Virus record (IMG/VR): IMGVR_UViG_3300001679_000186
Coordinates: 1-22,116 of that record
Length of the DNA stretch: 22,116 bases
Strand: one strand, 5' to 3'
DNA from: a virus
The notes beneath the pieces are model-generated. The model was given only the letters and a program-made list of their open reading frames with translations, searched no databases and was not told where the DNA came from. Both the position numbers and the translations under genes were made by a program. Numbering within the stretch: position 1 is the first letter of the stretch; each line of letters begins with the position of its first letter. Below are positions 3,079 to 11,418 of this stretch, one piece after another.

Positions 3079-3237
3079 ATGTTTGGTTTAACGGGAATTA
3101 CGCTGACTTTTATATTGGGCTTGGTTTTTATAATGGGATTTATTCAATACAAGGAAAAAATAACAAAGTCTGATTTTTGGATTATATCCATATTTGTCAT
3201 TCAATTAGCTTTTAACATTGTGGCGGTGGTACGATGA
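3079..3237 (+). CDS. small membrane protein with two hydrophobic segments
   Basis: 52 residues from ATG at 3079 (GGAG at 3067-3070, spacing about 9). An in-frame ATG at 3064 would add five residues (MEKNK) but its upstream AGG is very close. Two hydrophobic stretches, about residues 4-22 (GITLTFILGLVFIMGF) and 33-51 (FWIISIFVIQLAFNIVAVV), are separated by a basic hinge QYKEKITKSD, so a two-helix hairpin in the inner membrane is likely. Its last codons overlap rusA by ATGA. Function unknown. Confidence 0.55.
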   Translation: MFGLTGITLTFILGLVFIMGFIQYKEKITKSDFWIISIFVIQLAFNIVAVVR

Positions 3238-3659
3238 AAATGTTTGTCGTAGGTACACCAAGGCCACAAGCAAGGCCACGTACATTTAGACAGGGTAAAT
3301 TCATTAAGACCATAAGCCCGATCACAGAGTGGCGGAATGATGTAAAATACAAAGCTCTTGAGAAAGCAAGAGCTGGTTGCCTTAAAGGGCCACTTGAGGT
3401 AACAATAATGTATTTATTCAAAAGGCCTGATTCACATTATGGAACTGGCAGAAATGCGGGAATAGTAAAAAAATCATCACCGCATTTCATGACAACTAGA
3501 CCAGACATTGACAATCTTAACAAGGCTGTGCTTGATGCAATCCAGGATGCCGGATTAATCCAGGATGACAGCGCAGTCGTTAAGCTGATATCATCAAAGA
3601 ATTACGCTATTGACGGCGGAACAGCGGGGGCGCTAATCGAAATAGAGGAAATACTATGA
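3234..3659 (+). CDS. rusA: RusA-type Holliday junction resolvase
   Basis: 141 residues, near the usual length of RusA (about 120). N-terminal GTPRPQARPR, a common RusA-family opening, is followed by the catalytic block RPDIDNLNKAVLDAI. Asp91, Asp93 and Lys97 have the same spacing as E. coli RusA Asp70, Asp72 and Lys76. Asp112 in QDDSAVVKL matches the third acidic residue (Asp91 in E. coli RusA). The enzyme is a dimer that cuts four-way DNA junctions, resolving recombination intermediates before packaging. It fits with the upstream annealing and exonuclease genes. Start ATG overlaps the stop of the small membrane gene, and its own stop overlaps the next start, so it is translationally coupled on both sides. 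Confidence 0.9.
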   Translation: MKMFVVGTPRPQARPRTFRQGKFIKTISPITEWRNDVKYKALEKARAGCLKGPLEVTIMYLFKRPDSHYGTGRNAGIVKKSSPHFMTTRPDIDNLNKAVLDAIQDAGLIQDDSAVVKLISSKNYAIDGGTAGALIEIEEIL

Positions 3660-4124: not shown

Positions 4125-4289
4125 ATGAACGTACCAACTTTTGAGGAATATATAAGCGATAAGGAAAACGAGTGGAATCATTTTAACAAAGAAGAAAATT
4201 TAGAAGGGATGTTAAGGATAGAAAGAGAAATACAAGATTTTTATGATATGCACGAAAGACTAAATAATAAACAAAAAGGGAATGAATAA
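4125..4289 (+). CDS. small charged hypothetical protein
   Basis: 54 residues from ATG at 4125. An upstream in-frame GTG at 4080 lies inside the terminator stem, whereas AGGGG at 4113-4117 sits 7 bases before the ATG. The protein is highly charged (ISDKENEWNHFNKEENLEG) and likely one or two helices; there is no motif I recognise. Its end overlaps the annotated region of the HTH gene only if that gene starts at 4282. It probably forms a two-gene unit with the regulator. Confidence 0.55.
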   Translation: MNVPTFEEYISDKENEWNHFNKEENLEGMLRIEREIQDFYDMHERLNNKQKGNE

Positions 4290-4290
4290 C

Positions 4291-4728
4291 ATGATAGACT
4301 CACACGAAATACTTAAAGAAGTAATATCTACATCTTCAAAAAAGATCGCTGGTCATTTAGGACTATCCAAGGAATTAATCTATAAATGGCAGAATGGCGA
4401 GGCTAAGAATCCTATTGACCGGGTCCTGGCTATATCTGAGGAAAAGAACACTAATAAGATTATAGAGCACTTGTGTACCATGCGTGGCGGCTTTTTCGTC
4501 AAGAATACGGATGATCTCGATACATCAGTAAGAGTTAATAGCATTTATATCAAAATTGCCAATCTAACAAAGGTGTTGACTGAGAGCAATGAAGACAATC
4601 ATCTTTCATACAATGAGATCGTAAGAATAAATTGTGAATGGAATGATTTGCAAAGCGCTGTGACCGGCCTCTTGTCTGAGAAATTCAAAGAATATATGAT
4701 GGAAGACGTTCGTAAAGAACAGTCTTAA
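4291..4728 (+). CDS. CII-like phage transcriptional regulator (helix-turn-helix)
   Basis: 145 residues from ATG at 4291, chosen because AAAGGG at 4275-4280 lies 10 bases upstream; ATG at 4282 would be 1 base from it and would overlap the previous gene. Residues about 15-37 form a helix-turn-helix (KKIAGHLGLSKELIYKWQNG). The signature NPIDRVLAI, then a stretch ending LCTMRGGFFVKN (about 61-72), is characteristic of a phage regulatory family related to CII that I know mainly from Gram-negative phages. The C-terminal half is helical and may mediate oligomerisation. The gene is last in the rightward operon, converges with the lipoprotein gene (overlap of the two stop codons at 4725-4728) and likely controls a lysogeny or early-late switch. 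Target sites are not identified. Confidence 0.7.
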   Translation: MIDSHEILKEVISTSSKKIAGHLGLSKELIYKWQNGEAKNPIDRVLAISEEKNTNKIIEHLCTMRGGFFVKNTDDLDTSVRVNSIYIKIANLTKVLTESNEDNHLSYNEIVRINCEWNDLQSAVTGLLSEKFKEYMMEDVRKEQS

Positions 4729-4961
4729 GGAACCAAGGGGATCGTAAGGTCTCCAGCTTCCTGTCTTAGTCCCTCCGCAATATCCTCCAGTTTACTCCCT
4801 TCCATTTTGGTATCACCATCAGAAACTTGAACCTTTGGGACACTTATAGTTATAGGCGAAGAAGCTATATTAATCTGTAATTGACAACTACTTATCAGAA
4901 GTAGAAGCAAAAGCGACGTCAAGGCCATCTTGACGTTTTTTATAGTACTGTTTGATTTCAT
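4725..4961 (-). CDS. small lipoprotein, candidate outer-membrane spanin (Rz1-like)
   Basis: 78 residues with a lipoprotein signal: basic start MKSNSTIKNVKM, hydrophobic run (LTSLLLLLLISS) and lipobox I23-S24-S25-Cys26. The mature part is about 53 residues, with SSPITISVPKVQ and a final LTIPLVP. Start ATG at 4961 has GGAA 7 bases upstream; a shorter start at 4928 lacks a site. The 5' 74 bases overlap the 3' end of the CheY-like gene in another frame, an overlap style known for Rz/Rz1 spanin pairs. As o-spanin it would sit in the outer membrane and pair with the TM/coiled-coil protein at 5329-5742. It is not very proline-rich, so the spanin call is tentative. Confidence 0.6.
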   Translation of the reverse strand: MKSNSTIKNVKMALTSLLLLLLISSCQLQINIASSPITISVPKVQVSDGDTKMEGSKLEDIAEGLRQEAGDLTIPLVP

Positions 4962-5322
4962 GTAATAATTCCATTGGTTTTGTTTTAGAGATGATTCTAA
5001 AATTTTTAGGTATCAAATTATACTGTTTAAGAATTTCTTTCTTAATATAGTTAACTGGATGTCCCGAATACATACAAACTAGCCCCTTAAACTTTAAAAG
5101 TCTTATCATCAAATGTTGTTGGTCTGTGATTTTGAAGTTATTATACTGGAAGTCAACGATTAATATCTCTGGCCGGTGTATAGAAACGGTGCAAAAAATG
5201 TGGTAGGGATTGTCCTCAGAGTTGAAAACAATGTCGGGGAAGTTAACCTCAATCATCTTTTTAATAGTTGCTAAGCAAGTCCTTTCGTCTTCGAAAACCA
5301 TTAAATTCATTGGGGCGTTCAT
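4888..5322 (-). CDS. CheY-like response-regulator receiver domain, stand-alone
   Basis: 144 residues, one domain. The five-strand receiver pattern is visible. Acidic pocket FEDE (Glu11-Asp12-Glu13) follows strand 1. RPEILIVDFQ places Asp57 at the end of strand 3 as the phosphorylation site. LVCMYSGHP gives Ser86 after strand 4. RIISKTKP gives Lys113 after strand 5, then a helix MELLHEIKQYYKKR. No output domain follows; residues 131-144 are a short tail whose DNA also encodes the lipoprotein signal peptide. Start at 5322 has AAGGA about 10 bases upstream. It sits between late genes in the lysis region, 6 bases after the coiled-coil gene. It might intercept host phosphorelay or chemotaxis signalling; this is inference. 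Confidence 0.62.
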   Translation of the reverse strand: MNAPMNLMVFEDERTCLATIKKMIEVNFPDIVFNSEDNPYHIFCTVSIHRPEILIVDFQYNNFKITDQQHLMIRLLKFKGLVCMYSGHPVNYIKKEILKQYNLIPKNFRIISKTKPMELLHEIKQYYKKRQDGLDVAFASTSDK

Positions 5323-5328
5323 TGCGTA

Positions 5329-5742
5329 TCATCCTTTTCTATCTTCCTTTTTATTCATCGTTGCCCATAGATCCCTAAATACTTCCCTGTTCTCTGTTTC
5401 TATCTTATTGAGAGAATCCCTATTATTACTCTCGATCTTATCAATAGATTTTTCAAGTTTTTCAAATCCTTTTTCCATGCCGTCGGCATTCTTTTCAAGG
5501 GCATCAAAGATATTGGTCATCATGATATTTAAGCGGTCATATTGCTGCTTTTGGTCTCTATAGTTTAGAGAAATATCTGCTATGGCTTCGTCAATCGGTT
5601 TCACGGCTGCCCTAATCTTGTCATCTATAAGTTTTTCAGTTTCGGCCTTATCTGCCTTGGCCTTAATTCTTATTACCCATGCCCCAACGGTACCAGCTAA
5701 GAAAAACACAATCGCCAATATGTTACTTACTGTTATTTCCAT
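5329..5742 (-). CDS. membrane-anchored coiled-coil protein, candidate inner spanin or holin-associated protein
   Basis: 137 residues. A short N-terminal part is followed by a hydrophobic helix about residues 5-24 (VSNILAIVFFLAGTVGAWVI), then RIKAK, and a long charged heptad-type helix to the C-terminus (EKNADGMEKGFEKLEKSIDK and similar). N-terminal anchor plus long periplasmic coiled coil is the plan of Rz-type inner spanins; XhlA-like proteins look similar but usually have the TM at the other end. With the small lipoprotein two genes downstream it could bridge the membranes at lysis. No Cys for disulphide linkage is obvious. The overlapping plus-strand frame at 5210-5563 is a shadow. Confidence 0.5.
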   Translation of the reverse strand: MEITVSNILAIVFFLAGTVGAWVIRIKAKADKAETEKLIDDKIRAAVKPIDEAIADISLNYRDQKQQYDRLNIMMTNIFDALEKNADGMEKGFEKLEKSIDKIESNNRDSLNKIETENREVFRDLWATMNKKEDRKG

Positions 5743-5815: not shown

Positions 5816-6214
5816 CTAATCAATAAAATTAAAACTTGCCTTCCCGCCAGATCTGACTGCTTCATAGTATTTAATCAGTCTCTCTCTTGCCCAATGCTTA
5901 CGTAACCAATTAGTGCCGTAAAGGTACCATCTATCCGGTGTTTTCTCAATAATGAACAATGCAGTACCAATCATCGCAATATCCGCGTCGAATCGGTCTT
6001 TCTTATTTCCGCCAATTTCGTAAAGTCCATCGTGATGATAAAAGGCTAAGTTGCAGTCTATCCCATATAAAGTATGAGGAATGAAGAAAGACAAGGCCTT
6101 ATTGTTCTCTGGACCAGCGTAATCAAGCTCTGGATTATAAGCGCCAATTGCATCAACAAGGCTTTTGTAAATCGTAAGGTCTCTAAACCAGCTATGTAAT
6201 TCTTTATCCGTCAT
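5816..6214 (-). CDS. PLA2-like-fold phage protein (C-HD-Y motif), probable lysis or late protein
   Basis: 132 residues with AAGGAG 6 bases before ATG at 6214. The core motif is Cys54-x5-His60-His61-Asp62-x2-Tyr65 followed by GGNKKDRFDAD (residues 68-78). This resembles the phospholipase-A2-like signature seen in many small phage proteins encoded near lysis genes: C-x-x-H-D-x-x-Y-x-G-G then R-x-x-A-D. The C-terminal helix AREREL-type region (RERLIKYYEAVRSGGKASF) also matches that group. No signal peptide is seen. If active it would hydrolyse phospholipid, but only one of the usual two Cys is present and activity is unproven. It sits directly beside the HNH insertion, and its N-terminus may have been re-formed by that event. 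Confidence 0.5.
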   Translation of the reverse strand: MTDKELHSWFRDLTIYKSLVDAIGAYNPELDYAGPENNKALSFFIPHTLYGIDCNLAFYHHDGLYEIGGNKKDRFDADIAMIGTALFIIEKTPDRWYLYGTNWLRKHWARERLIKYYEAVRSGGKASFNFID

Positions 6215-6285
6215 ATAGACTCCTTTAAGTAATTCGCATTGTACACTTGTGGCTGTATATTAGATATAACACAAAAGGAGCGATC

Positions 6286-6876
6286 ATGAGACGAAGAGAT
6301 ATAGCTGGTCAAAAGTTCAATAAATTGACTGTAATAGAGAAGGCGCCTAATGCGAAGAATGGAAAAACTCAATGGCTTTGTCAATGTGACTGTGGCAATA
6401 GAGCTATTATTATAACTGGTAGAATTATAAATGGACAAAATAAAGGCTGTGGCTGTGGAAGAGGAGGAAACAATAAAACCCATGGGCTTTCTAAGACACC
6501 CGAGTATAGAGTATGGAACGGTATGATTGACAGGACTACTAATCCTAAAGCCGCGGCCTATGATCGATACGGGGGCAGAGGTATCACTGTTTGTGATCGA
6601 TGGCTTAAGTTTGAAAACTTCCTTAAAGATATGGGTGAACGCCCGAATAACCTTACTATCGATAGAATAGATAATGATAAGGGGTATTTTCTTAATAATT
6701 GTGAATGGTCTACAATAGCGGATCAATCTAGAAACAAAAGCACCAACCGATTTATTACTATTGATGGAGTTACTAAGATACTTAATGATTGGTTTAAAGA
6801 ATCCCCTCTTTGCGTTATGACATTTTATAATAGACAAAAGAAGGGATTTTCTGAAAGGGTATCCCTTGGTCTTTAA
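6286..6876 (+). CDS. free-standing HNH homing endonuclease-like protein
   Basis: 196 residues from ATG at 6286 with AAAGGAG 6 bases upstream. Three parts are visible: a Cys-rich N-terminus (WLCQCDCGN and GCGCG; residues 32-57) probably binding zinc; an HNH-type core (IDRIDNDKGYF then NNCEWST at about 125-143, ending SRNK); and a C-terminal DNA-binding helix-type segment (ITIDGVTKILNDWFKES). This is the build of phage free-standing HNH endonucleases that spread by cutting DNA at an unoccupied site. It runs against the late genes and interrupts them. Ten of eleven Leu codons are CTT (one TTG, no TTA), unlike neighbouring genes that use TTA often, and no Ser is TCA. This suggests foreign origin. 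Confidence 0.8.
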   Translation: MRRRDIAGQKFNKLTVIEKAPNAKNGKTQWLCQCDCGNRAIIITGRIINGQNKGCGCGRGGNNKTHGLSKTPEYRVWNGMIDRTTNPKAAAYDRYGGRGITVCDRWLKFENFLKDMGERPNNLTIDRIDNDKGYFLNNCEWSTIADQSRNKSTNRFITIDGVTKILNDWFKESPLCVMTFYNRQKKGFSERVSLGL

Positions 6877-6910: not shown

Positions 6911-7930
6911 CTATGTACATTCGACGTCTAAGCCCGATCCAGTAAATAAAATAGTACCAGTATTAGTGGCATCGTTCGCCGCAATCTTATCTTCTATCTC
7001 AGTCCCAGGTGATCCAGACCAGTTGGCTAAATCCCAAAAACCAGCAAGCTTTGCGTGTGTGCTTGAGTGTAAACTCAGTAATTCCGATTCACATAAAGAA
7101 ACGCCAGAGTTATACATGTTTTGATGATCGGTTAAAGTTAGAGATTCAAGAGAATATGCCGCAAAACTAAGATTACCATTAAAGAATACTGGACTAGCAC
7201 CAATGTCTCTTCTGCCAAATTGTAGCGCTGCTGTATTGCTGTTATCACCTGTAGAGACACTCCCTGTTAATGTTCCGCCGCTTACAGCTTCAATAGCTCC
7301 GTCAATCATGATTATGGGCTCACCGCCTGCTCGATTAGAGTCTGCCGTTACAAGGTGCCATGCATTATCGTCAAATCCTGTTGTGGTTGTTTCAAAACTT
7401 AAATACCTATTACTCGCATCAATTTCAAAATCAAAATGAACCTGCCCAGAAGCATCTATCCAGAGTTGCCACGCCGCTGGAGTTGCGTTCCCTATCTTCG
7501 TCATTAGCATCTGACTTGCGCCTGCATTGGTTTTGAACCATATACTATTACTAACATTACCTGTGCCAACATCCAGCACATCACCAAGAGTGAAGCTTTG
7601 ACTTGTTCCGTTCAAGTCGGATAAATTTGCCGCGAAGGTTGTGACCGGTGTACATTCGACATTTAAACCAGTTCCGGTAAAGGCTATGCTATTTACATTA
7701 GTCGCGTCATTTGACCCATGTCTATCCTCAATCTCTGTTCCAGTTGATCCAGACCAATTAGAAAGATGCCAATATGAAACGAGATCGGTCTTAAGCCCTG
7801 CTGATAATTCATCGTAGCAAAGCGCCACGCCAGCATTACACATGGTAGCGAAATCAGCTTCAACAAGAGCCTCATCCCAAATACCCGCAAAGCCCTGATC
7901 GCCATTCCAGTTCACTATGCCGTTATTCAC
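6911..7930 (-). CDS. LamG/ConA-like phage adhesin, C-terminal part (frame-broken)
   Basis: 339 residues. The frame starts at GTG 7930 but no ribosome binding site is seen. The N-terminus (VNWNGDQGFAGIWDEALV) continues a lectin domain begun in the frame at 7989-8393. Two copies of a 43-residue module occur: residues 52-94 and 297-339, each with NWSGS-x-GTEIED, NDATN and VECT. Between them lies a second complete LamG-like beta-sandwich (about 95-295), with WLW-type strands, AWHLVTAD and DGAIEAV turns. Such domains bind sugars and are used in tail spikes or fibres for host attachment. The 1-base slip at the junction (7990-8010) is discussed separately. Joined, the product would be about 493 residues. 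Confidence 0.65.
   Translation of the reverse strand: MNNGIVNWNGDQGFAGIWDEALVEADFATMCNAGVALCYDELSAGLKTDLVSYWHLSNWSGSTGTEIEDRHGSNDATNVNSIAFTGTGLNVECTPVTTFAANLSDLNGTSQSFTLGDVLDVGTGNVSNSIWFKTNAGASQMLMTKIGNATPAAWQLWIDASGQVHFDFEIDASNRYLSFETTTTGFDDNAWHLVTADSNRAGGEPIIMIDGAIEAVSGGTLTGSVSTGDNSNTAALQFGRRDIGASPVFFNGNLSFAAYSLESLTLTDHQNMYNSGVSLCESELLSLHSSTHAKLAGFWDLANWSGSPGTEIEDKIAANDATNTGTILFTGSGLDVECT
6914..7042 (-). repeat. second copy of the NWSGS-GTEIED module
   Basis: Codes GFWDLANWSGSPGTEIED and on to GLDVECT at the C-terminus of the LamG-like protein. It is a divergent in-protein repeat of 7649-7777. Confidence 0.6.
7649..7777 (-). repeat. first copy of the NWSGS-GTEIED module
   Basis: Codes SYWHLSNWSGSTGTEIED and on to GLNVECT. 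It ends the first lectin domain and is repeated at 6914-7042, indicating a domain duplication. Confidence 0.6.
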
Positions 7931-10872: not shown

Positions 10873-11418
10873 ATGAGAAATATTATTGGTTCAATCTCCG
10901 TCATTATGTCAATCGTTGGTATTCCTATCTCTATTAAATTAATGACTACTAACAGGTTATTACTAGGAATTGTATGTTTTATATGGTTTAGCTACGTCTT
11001 GATTTTCGTCGGAGAATATCTCTATAAGCAAGTAAAAAAAACATTAGCCTTCACTTTAATTGAGCTTATTGCAGTCATTACCATCATGAGTATATTGCTC
11101 ACAGTTACGATAAGCGCATTGAAGACCGATCCTAGTAAAACCGATGCTATTGTTCTGGCTTCTCAGTTAAAGCTATTACATACTCAGTCTCTAATTTATG
11201 ATAATGACGTTGCCTTTACCCGAGAATTCGTATTGAATCAGGATGACTTTCTTTCTGAAATAACTTTATCTCATCCGGACTTACATTTTGTAAAAGGCGA
11301 ACCGCTAAACGTCGATGAAAAACAAATCCTTGGCTACGAAATTGAAATCAAACATAAAGACGAACAGCCAATTTTAATAAAAGTTAAGCCGTTTACTGGA
11401 AAAGTCACTTTCTATTAA
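10873..11418 (+). CDS. pseudopilin-like protein (GspH/FimT-type) with extra N-terminal membrane segments
   Basis: 181 residues; AAAGGG 8 bases before ATG. It has the type IV prepilin signature KKTLA-FTLIEL (residues 55-64): cleavage would follow Ala59, Phe60 is the methylated first residue and Glu64 the conserved +5 Glu, then a hydrophobic helix (IAVITIMSILLTVTISAL). The mature 122-residue part has LASQLKLLHTQSLIYDNDVAF, as in minor pseudopilins. Unusually, 59 residues with two hydrophobic spans (about 4-24 and 29-48) precede it, against the usual leader under 30. A TTG at 10999 would give a normal leader but lacks a binding site. Ala instead of Gly at -1 is atypical. It runs opposite the late genes and converges with 11415-12659 by 4 bases. 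Could be a moron taken from a host. Confidence 0.65.
   Translation: MRNIIGSISVIMSIVGIPISIKLMTTNRLLLGIVCFIWFSYVLIFVGEYLYKQVKKTLAFTLIELIAVITIMSILLTVTISALKTDPSKTDAIVLASQLKLLHTQSLIYDNDVAFTREFVLNQDDFLSEITLSHPDLHFVKGEPLNVDEKQILGYEIEIKHKDEQPILIKVKPFTGKVTFY

Follow-up and report, generated by a model that had tools for sequence, protein, structure and literature searches.

Does this phage encode a one-domain receiver of the two-component type among its lysis genes? The question is raised by an open reading frame (ORF) in the window, that is, the whole 22,116-nucleotide stretch of DNA analysed here, which is a 22-kb IMG/VR record of an unclassified tailed phage. An earlier note, made from the sequence alone, had read the ORF product as a CheY-like receiver with all four landmark positions of a phosphorylatable domain, and had suggested that it could tap a host kinase to time lysis or serve as a phosphate sink.

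Gene order around the receiver-like ORF

The plus strand of the window carries recombination and early genes, including an exonuclease (1611-2390), RusA (3234-3659) and a CII-like regulator, and the minus strand carries the structural genes (tape measure, neck and connector proteins). The two sets converge near position 4725 (Table 1). The receiver-like ORF lies on the minus strand between two genes that are probably a two-component spanin pair, judging from features of their products. By inspection, the upstream gene encodes an N-terminal transmembrane (TM) segment and a periplasmic coiled coil, the hallmarks of an i-spanin, and its weak Rz-like matches are to phrog_739 for the window protein and to phrog_214, 89 and 739 for the homologue in the sister phage described below. 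The downstream gene encodes a small lipoprotein, as in o-spanins, with the lipobox ISSC (LSSC in the sister phage, where the gene overlaps the i-spanin-like gene). The late or lysis setting proposed in the earlier note is thereby supported, since the flanks are TM-coiled-coil and lipoprotein genes whose sister counterparts form an overlapping spanin-like pair. The ORF was also considered as the i-spanin itself and rejected, since it has no TM segment.

Four terminator-like hairpins were found in the region, against 2.0 expected from shuffling. When the one listed in Table 1 is viewed from the minus strand, its loop contains an internal ATG of the lipoprotein gene. By eye, a hairpin with a T run likewise lies within the lipoprotein gene of the sister phage (L212, approximately 6918-6962).

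Table 1. Features of the window around the receiver-like ORF (positions are those of the window)
Feature	Position	Strand	Remarks
CII-like helix-turn-helix regulator	4282..4728	+	Convergent with the spanin module; a CII-like gene occupies this position in the sister phage as well
Lipoprotein, probable o-spanin	4725..4961	-	78 aa; lipobox ISSC; downstream of the receiver-like gene
Receiver-like ORF	4888..5322	-	144 aa; neither TM nor output domain; accessory, with no counterpart in the sister phage
Terminator-like hairpin and T run, for the rightward early transcript	4915..4937	+	Within the overlap of the receiver-like and lipoprotein genes
Lys113 codon	4984..4986	-	From sequence; preceded by RIIS, next residue T instead of P
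Ser86 codon	5065..5067	-	From sequence; after VCMY
Asp57 codon, candidate phospho-acceptor	5152..5154	-	From sequence; after hydrophobic ILIV
Glu11 codon, first of acidic cluster E11-D12-E13	5290..5292	-	From sequence; after hydrophobic LMVF
Probable i-spanin, N-terminal TM and coiled coil	5329..5742	-	Weak Rz-like and Holin_LLH matches; homologue in the sister phage
Conserved late protein, function unassigned	5816..6214	-	74% identical in the sister phage; synteny anchor

The ORF itself is real. It comprises 144 codons from an ATG, starts 6 nt from the stop of the preceding gene and is preceded by a Shine-Dalgarno site (AAAAGGATGATACGCA-ATG, with AAAAGGA upstream). It is the sole long open frame there, the remaining frames having at most 51 codons. 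At its base composition, the chance of 143 open codons is approximately 2e-5, and none of 20,000 base shuffles stayed open.

Landmark residues of the ORF product

Translation places Glu11-Asp12-Glu13, Asp57, Ser86 and Lys113 exactly where the earlier note had put them, each after a hydrophobic stretch, and the 144-residue protein has no output domain, as that note had also held. The acidic pair expected at the end of strand 1 is found in LMVF-E11-D12-E13. The candidate phospho-acceptor follows in ILIV-D57, 44 to 45 residues beyond the acidic pair (approximately 44 expected, strand 3), and VCMY-S86 provides the Ser/Thr of strand 4, 29 residues after D57. A lysine at the canonical spacing and followed by proline was not found: K113 comes 27 residues after S86 and precedes a threonine, which makes the interval 5 residues too long against the 22 of four reference receivers. 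An alternative lysine, K106, lies 20 residues after S86 and is followed by asparagine. The loop after the aspartate (D57-FQYNNFKI) has neither the Pro nor the Gly of the receiver consensus (xxMPxMDG). The claim that all four landmark positions are kept thus stands for the residues and falls for the S86-K113 spacing, for the Pro/Gly after Asp and for the Pro after Lys. We rejected the reading of these four landmarks as family membership.

The arrangement was also scored with a spaced-pattern rule, consisting of three out of four hydrophobic residues and an acidic pair, hydrophobics and D 42 to 47 residues later, hydrophobics and S/T 26 to 32 residues further on, and finally K after another 18 to 30. 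This pattern is passed by 63 of 75 receivers, by a single one of 885 non-receiver ORFs (100 to 220 aa) and by 14 of 20,000 shuffles, rates that are optimistic, with a smaller true excess, because the query was already known when the rule was drawn up, and a reader had selected the ORF from among many. Being post hoc, the motif test was rejected as the sole ground for receiver identity.

Profile, homologue and structure searches

The response regulator family PF00072 (Response_reg) gave no match to the protein at E<=1 and none in the whole window even at E<=10, while all control genomes did match. PHROG, NCBIfam and PDB sequences returned no match of note for the protein. We also report scores against receiver profiles of our own, built from receivers on viral contigs and widened by hybrid-kinase receivers from plasmids, then by receivers of two Bacteroidota metagenome-assembled genomes (MAGs) and of large viral contigs. 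With filters off, the query scored 3.9 bits (83 sequences), 5.5 bits (with 8 hybrid-kinase receivers added) and 6.3 bits (137 sequences), which exceeds approximately 99.5% of unrelated proteins. The score of 6.3 bits, with an envelope of residues 1 to 135, was equalled by 5 of 921 background ORFs and by 3 of 2,000 shuffles, whereas the lowest-scoring held-out receivers still reached at least 62 bits, ten times the query. A profile of the 8 hybrid-kinase receivers alone gave 0.6 bits and no signal.

Alignments gave a divided picture. End to end with cheap gaps, the query scored above shuffles but in a register other than the expected one; with dear gaps the expected register was recovered, yet the score was no better than that of shuffles. 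With its accuracy cut-off disabled, hhalign produced an alignment that is colinear over the whole protein (P = 0.028), a result equalled by 3 of 150 unrelated proteins. Run on the single sequence, AlphaFold returned low-confidence models in two jobs (pLDDT 40 and 38), with which Foldseek found no match at E<=0.001. No homologues of the protein were found in phages, plasmids, IMG/VR or GTDB genomes, and the 16 matches to a degenerate DNA pattern around D57 include no convincing relative. A profile search showing no CheY-like fold had been named in the earlier note as an outcome that would refute the receiver reading. This is partly what was obtained. Taken with the landmark pattern, the marginal profile signal weakly supports receiver identity for the predicted product, and the silence of Pfam and the lack of a usable fold model stand against it; its membership among receivers is unproven.

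The sister phage lacks the receiver-like gene

The nearest kin were found through the 5816-6214 protein: two IMG/VR contigs, 3300006789_000189 (L211) and 3300025103_000084 (L212), encode a homologue that shares 74% identity with it. These contigs are identical to each other across the 3 kb compared and are treated here as one sister phage. Its gene order matches that of the window (tape measure, tail proteins, fibre, the 74% homologue, TM-coiled-coil protein, lipoprotein, convergent CII-like gene and exonuclease), with identities to the window of 47% and 33% for the matched parts of two tail proteins and 49% for the exonuclease. In the sister, the coiled-coil gene and the lipoprotein gene share an ATGA overlap; no receiver-like gene lies between them, and none was seen elsewhere in the two records. 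In the window, the ORF falls precisely between the counterparts of these two directly overlapping genes. Since the sister keeps both neighbours without it, the ORF is an accessory ("moron") gene at the junction of the i-spanin-like and o-spanin-like genes. A conserved linkage to these neighbours, which the earlier note had proposed to look for, is contradicted by the same arrangement. With two genomes compared, loss in the sister rather than gain in the window is possible.

Searches from other genes of the window added little. Relatives reached through the exonuclease or the tape measure match the window in no more than these genes or a few structural fragments, and the exonuclease matches in genomes fell in two Bacteroidota MAGs, in which the late genes show no synteny. 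No relatives were found through the coiled-coil protein or a tail protein. The late-gene order and related exonuclease shared with L211 and L212 are useful for typing this phage group.

Three other genes of the window deserve mention. An HNH endonuclease gene (6247-6876, plus strand; phrog_374, E=3e-66) is inserted against the late genes and was not seen at the corresponding place in the sister. The product of 10873-11418 (plus strand), a gene also on the strand opposite the tail genes, carries an N-methylation motif like that of type IV pilins (KKTLAFTLIELIAV), preceded by approximately 55 residues with hydrophobic segments; it matches Pfam N_methyl at E=3e-4, just under the cut-off, and a pilin phrog at E=0.014, and no counterpart was found in the sister stretch. 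The 5816-6214 protein (minus strand) holds CNLAFYHHDGLYEIGG...DRFDAD, which by eye resembles the HD..Y...AD motif of phospholipase A2-like proteins; database searches gave no support for this motif.

What the ORF product may be

Our main reading, to which we give a probability of approximately 0.4, is that the ORF encodes a stand-alone receiver which has diverged strongly and may be phosphorylatable. A receiver fold of any kind, active or not, we judge somewhat better than an even bet. The main rival is an unrelated small orphan alpha/beta phage protein in which the acidic triplet, D57, S86 and K113 coincide by chance; it would be an ordinary accessory protein, acting for example in host takeover or exclusion, without phosphorylation. 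This is a serious contender, although we would not put it at even odds. Phages commonly carry orphan accessory genes, neither homologues nor significant matches in Pfam, PHROGs, NCBIfam or PDB sequences were found, our profile scores barely exceed the null, and a chance fit becomes likelier when a reader scanning many ORFs selects the one that fits. It has to account, on the other side, for a landmark pattern which, with its strand context, is expected by chance in approximately 1 in 900 to 1 in 1400 cases, and for a weak, correctly ordered profile signal along the whole protein.

The loss of Pro/Gly after D57 and of Lys-Pro, together with the altered S86-K113 spacing in a protein with receiver-like strands and last helix, would suit a pseudo-receiver, i.e., a receiver fold by descent without the phosphorylation switch. 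Such a protein would be a module that binds constitutively to a component of the host, be it a response regulator, a kinase or a part of the chemotaxis/pilus apparatus. Yet all the catalytic residues are kept, which would be unexpected if phosphorylation had been abandoned long ago, and we regard this reading as unlikely. The least probable reading, which we consider very improbable, is that the ORF is not an independent gene and represents a chance open frame or a remnant of the spanin module, such as a lost C-terminus of the i-spanin. Its weak codon preference (approximately 0 bits per codon) and the 74 nt by which it overlaps the lipoprotein gene, whose start falls within it, would fit a spurious frame. 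The length of the open frame, the Shine-Dalgarno site, the tight packing and the intact i-spanin-like and o-spanin-like genes on both flanks argue for a gene.

Should we infer a receiver, together with phosphorylation, a host partner and an effect on lysis or signalling, its workings can be outlined. Strand 1 would end in E11-D12-E13, forming the metal pocket, strand 3 in the phospho-acceptor D57, strand 4 in S86 and strand 5 in K113, with a final helix at approximately 116-130. The protein would be translated late, together with the spanins, and its phosphate would come from a host histidine kinase or a small-molecule donor. Lacking an output domain, it would act through contacts with other proteins or as a phosphate sink, binding a partner or draining a host pathway of phosphate late in infection rather than binding DNA. 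A signalling role is only a guess. Only the position of the gene speaks for the proposed part in lysis timing, and it does so weakly, given that accessory genes take up places at gene junctions for reasons unconnected with what their neighbours do. The complete proposal, a phosphorylatable one-domain receiver set between two spanin genes and passing a host kinase signal to the outer-membrane lysis step or to a late host pathway, is a long shot.

A receiver identity would make the protein a phage-borne signalling domain of great divergence, placed unusually at the spanin junction, and whether host phosphorelays reach into late lysis could then be addressed directly. Should the protein prove not to be a receiver, the case illustrates that landmark residues read by eye are insufficient for family assignment, and that accessory genes can enter the spanin junction.

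Comparison with known systems

The product resembles stand-alone receivers of the CheY/Spo0F type (PF00072) in having a core of approximately 130 residues with no output domain, and in presenting an acidic cluster, Asp, Ser/Thr and Lys in this order after hydrophobic strands. It differs from them in being undetected by PF00072, in having neither Pro/Gly after the Asp nor Lys-Pro, and in the longer gap to the Lys; its identity to CheY is 14% in a forced alignment. Receivers on viral contigs are documented. The annotation of Alteromonas phage V22 includes a CheY-like gene (PMC7289586), and just two peptide patterns led to 160 confirmed receiver-encoding stretches in IMG/VR, although host DNA may account for some of these records and probably makes up part of the phage and viral collections in general. 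Several of the stretches are short open frames (123 to 156 aa), some of them too short for an output domain, a likeness to the present ORF that extends to its place on a viral contig. The IMG/VR receivers checked score 65 to 109 bits to PF00072, while the query gives no score. The view that phage-carried single receivers are uncommon was thus overstated. A literature search on phage-encoded response regulators, limited as evidence, returned nothing specific.

The flanking genes recall the two-component spanins Rz/Rz1, whose overlapped arrangement has been described (PMC6139136): they encode a TM-coiled-coil protein and a lipoprotein, and they overlap directly in the sister phage. Unlike overlapped Rz/Rz1, the pair in the window is split by the receiver-like gene, whose product carries neither a TM segment nor a lipobox and is itself no spanin. 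An architecture in which the two spanin genes lie apart has been described as well, and accounts for 118 of 528 pairs in the same survey (PMC6139136). A receiver on a phage is not new as an idea, and what is unusual here is the position of the ORF and its divergence.
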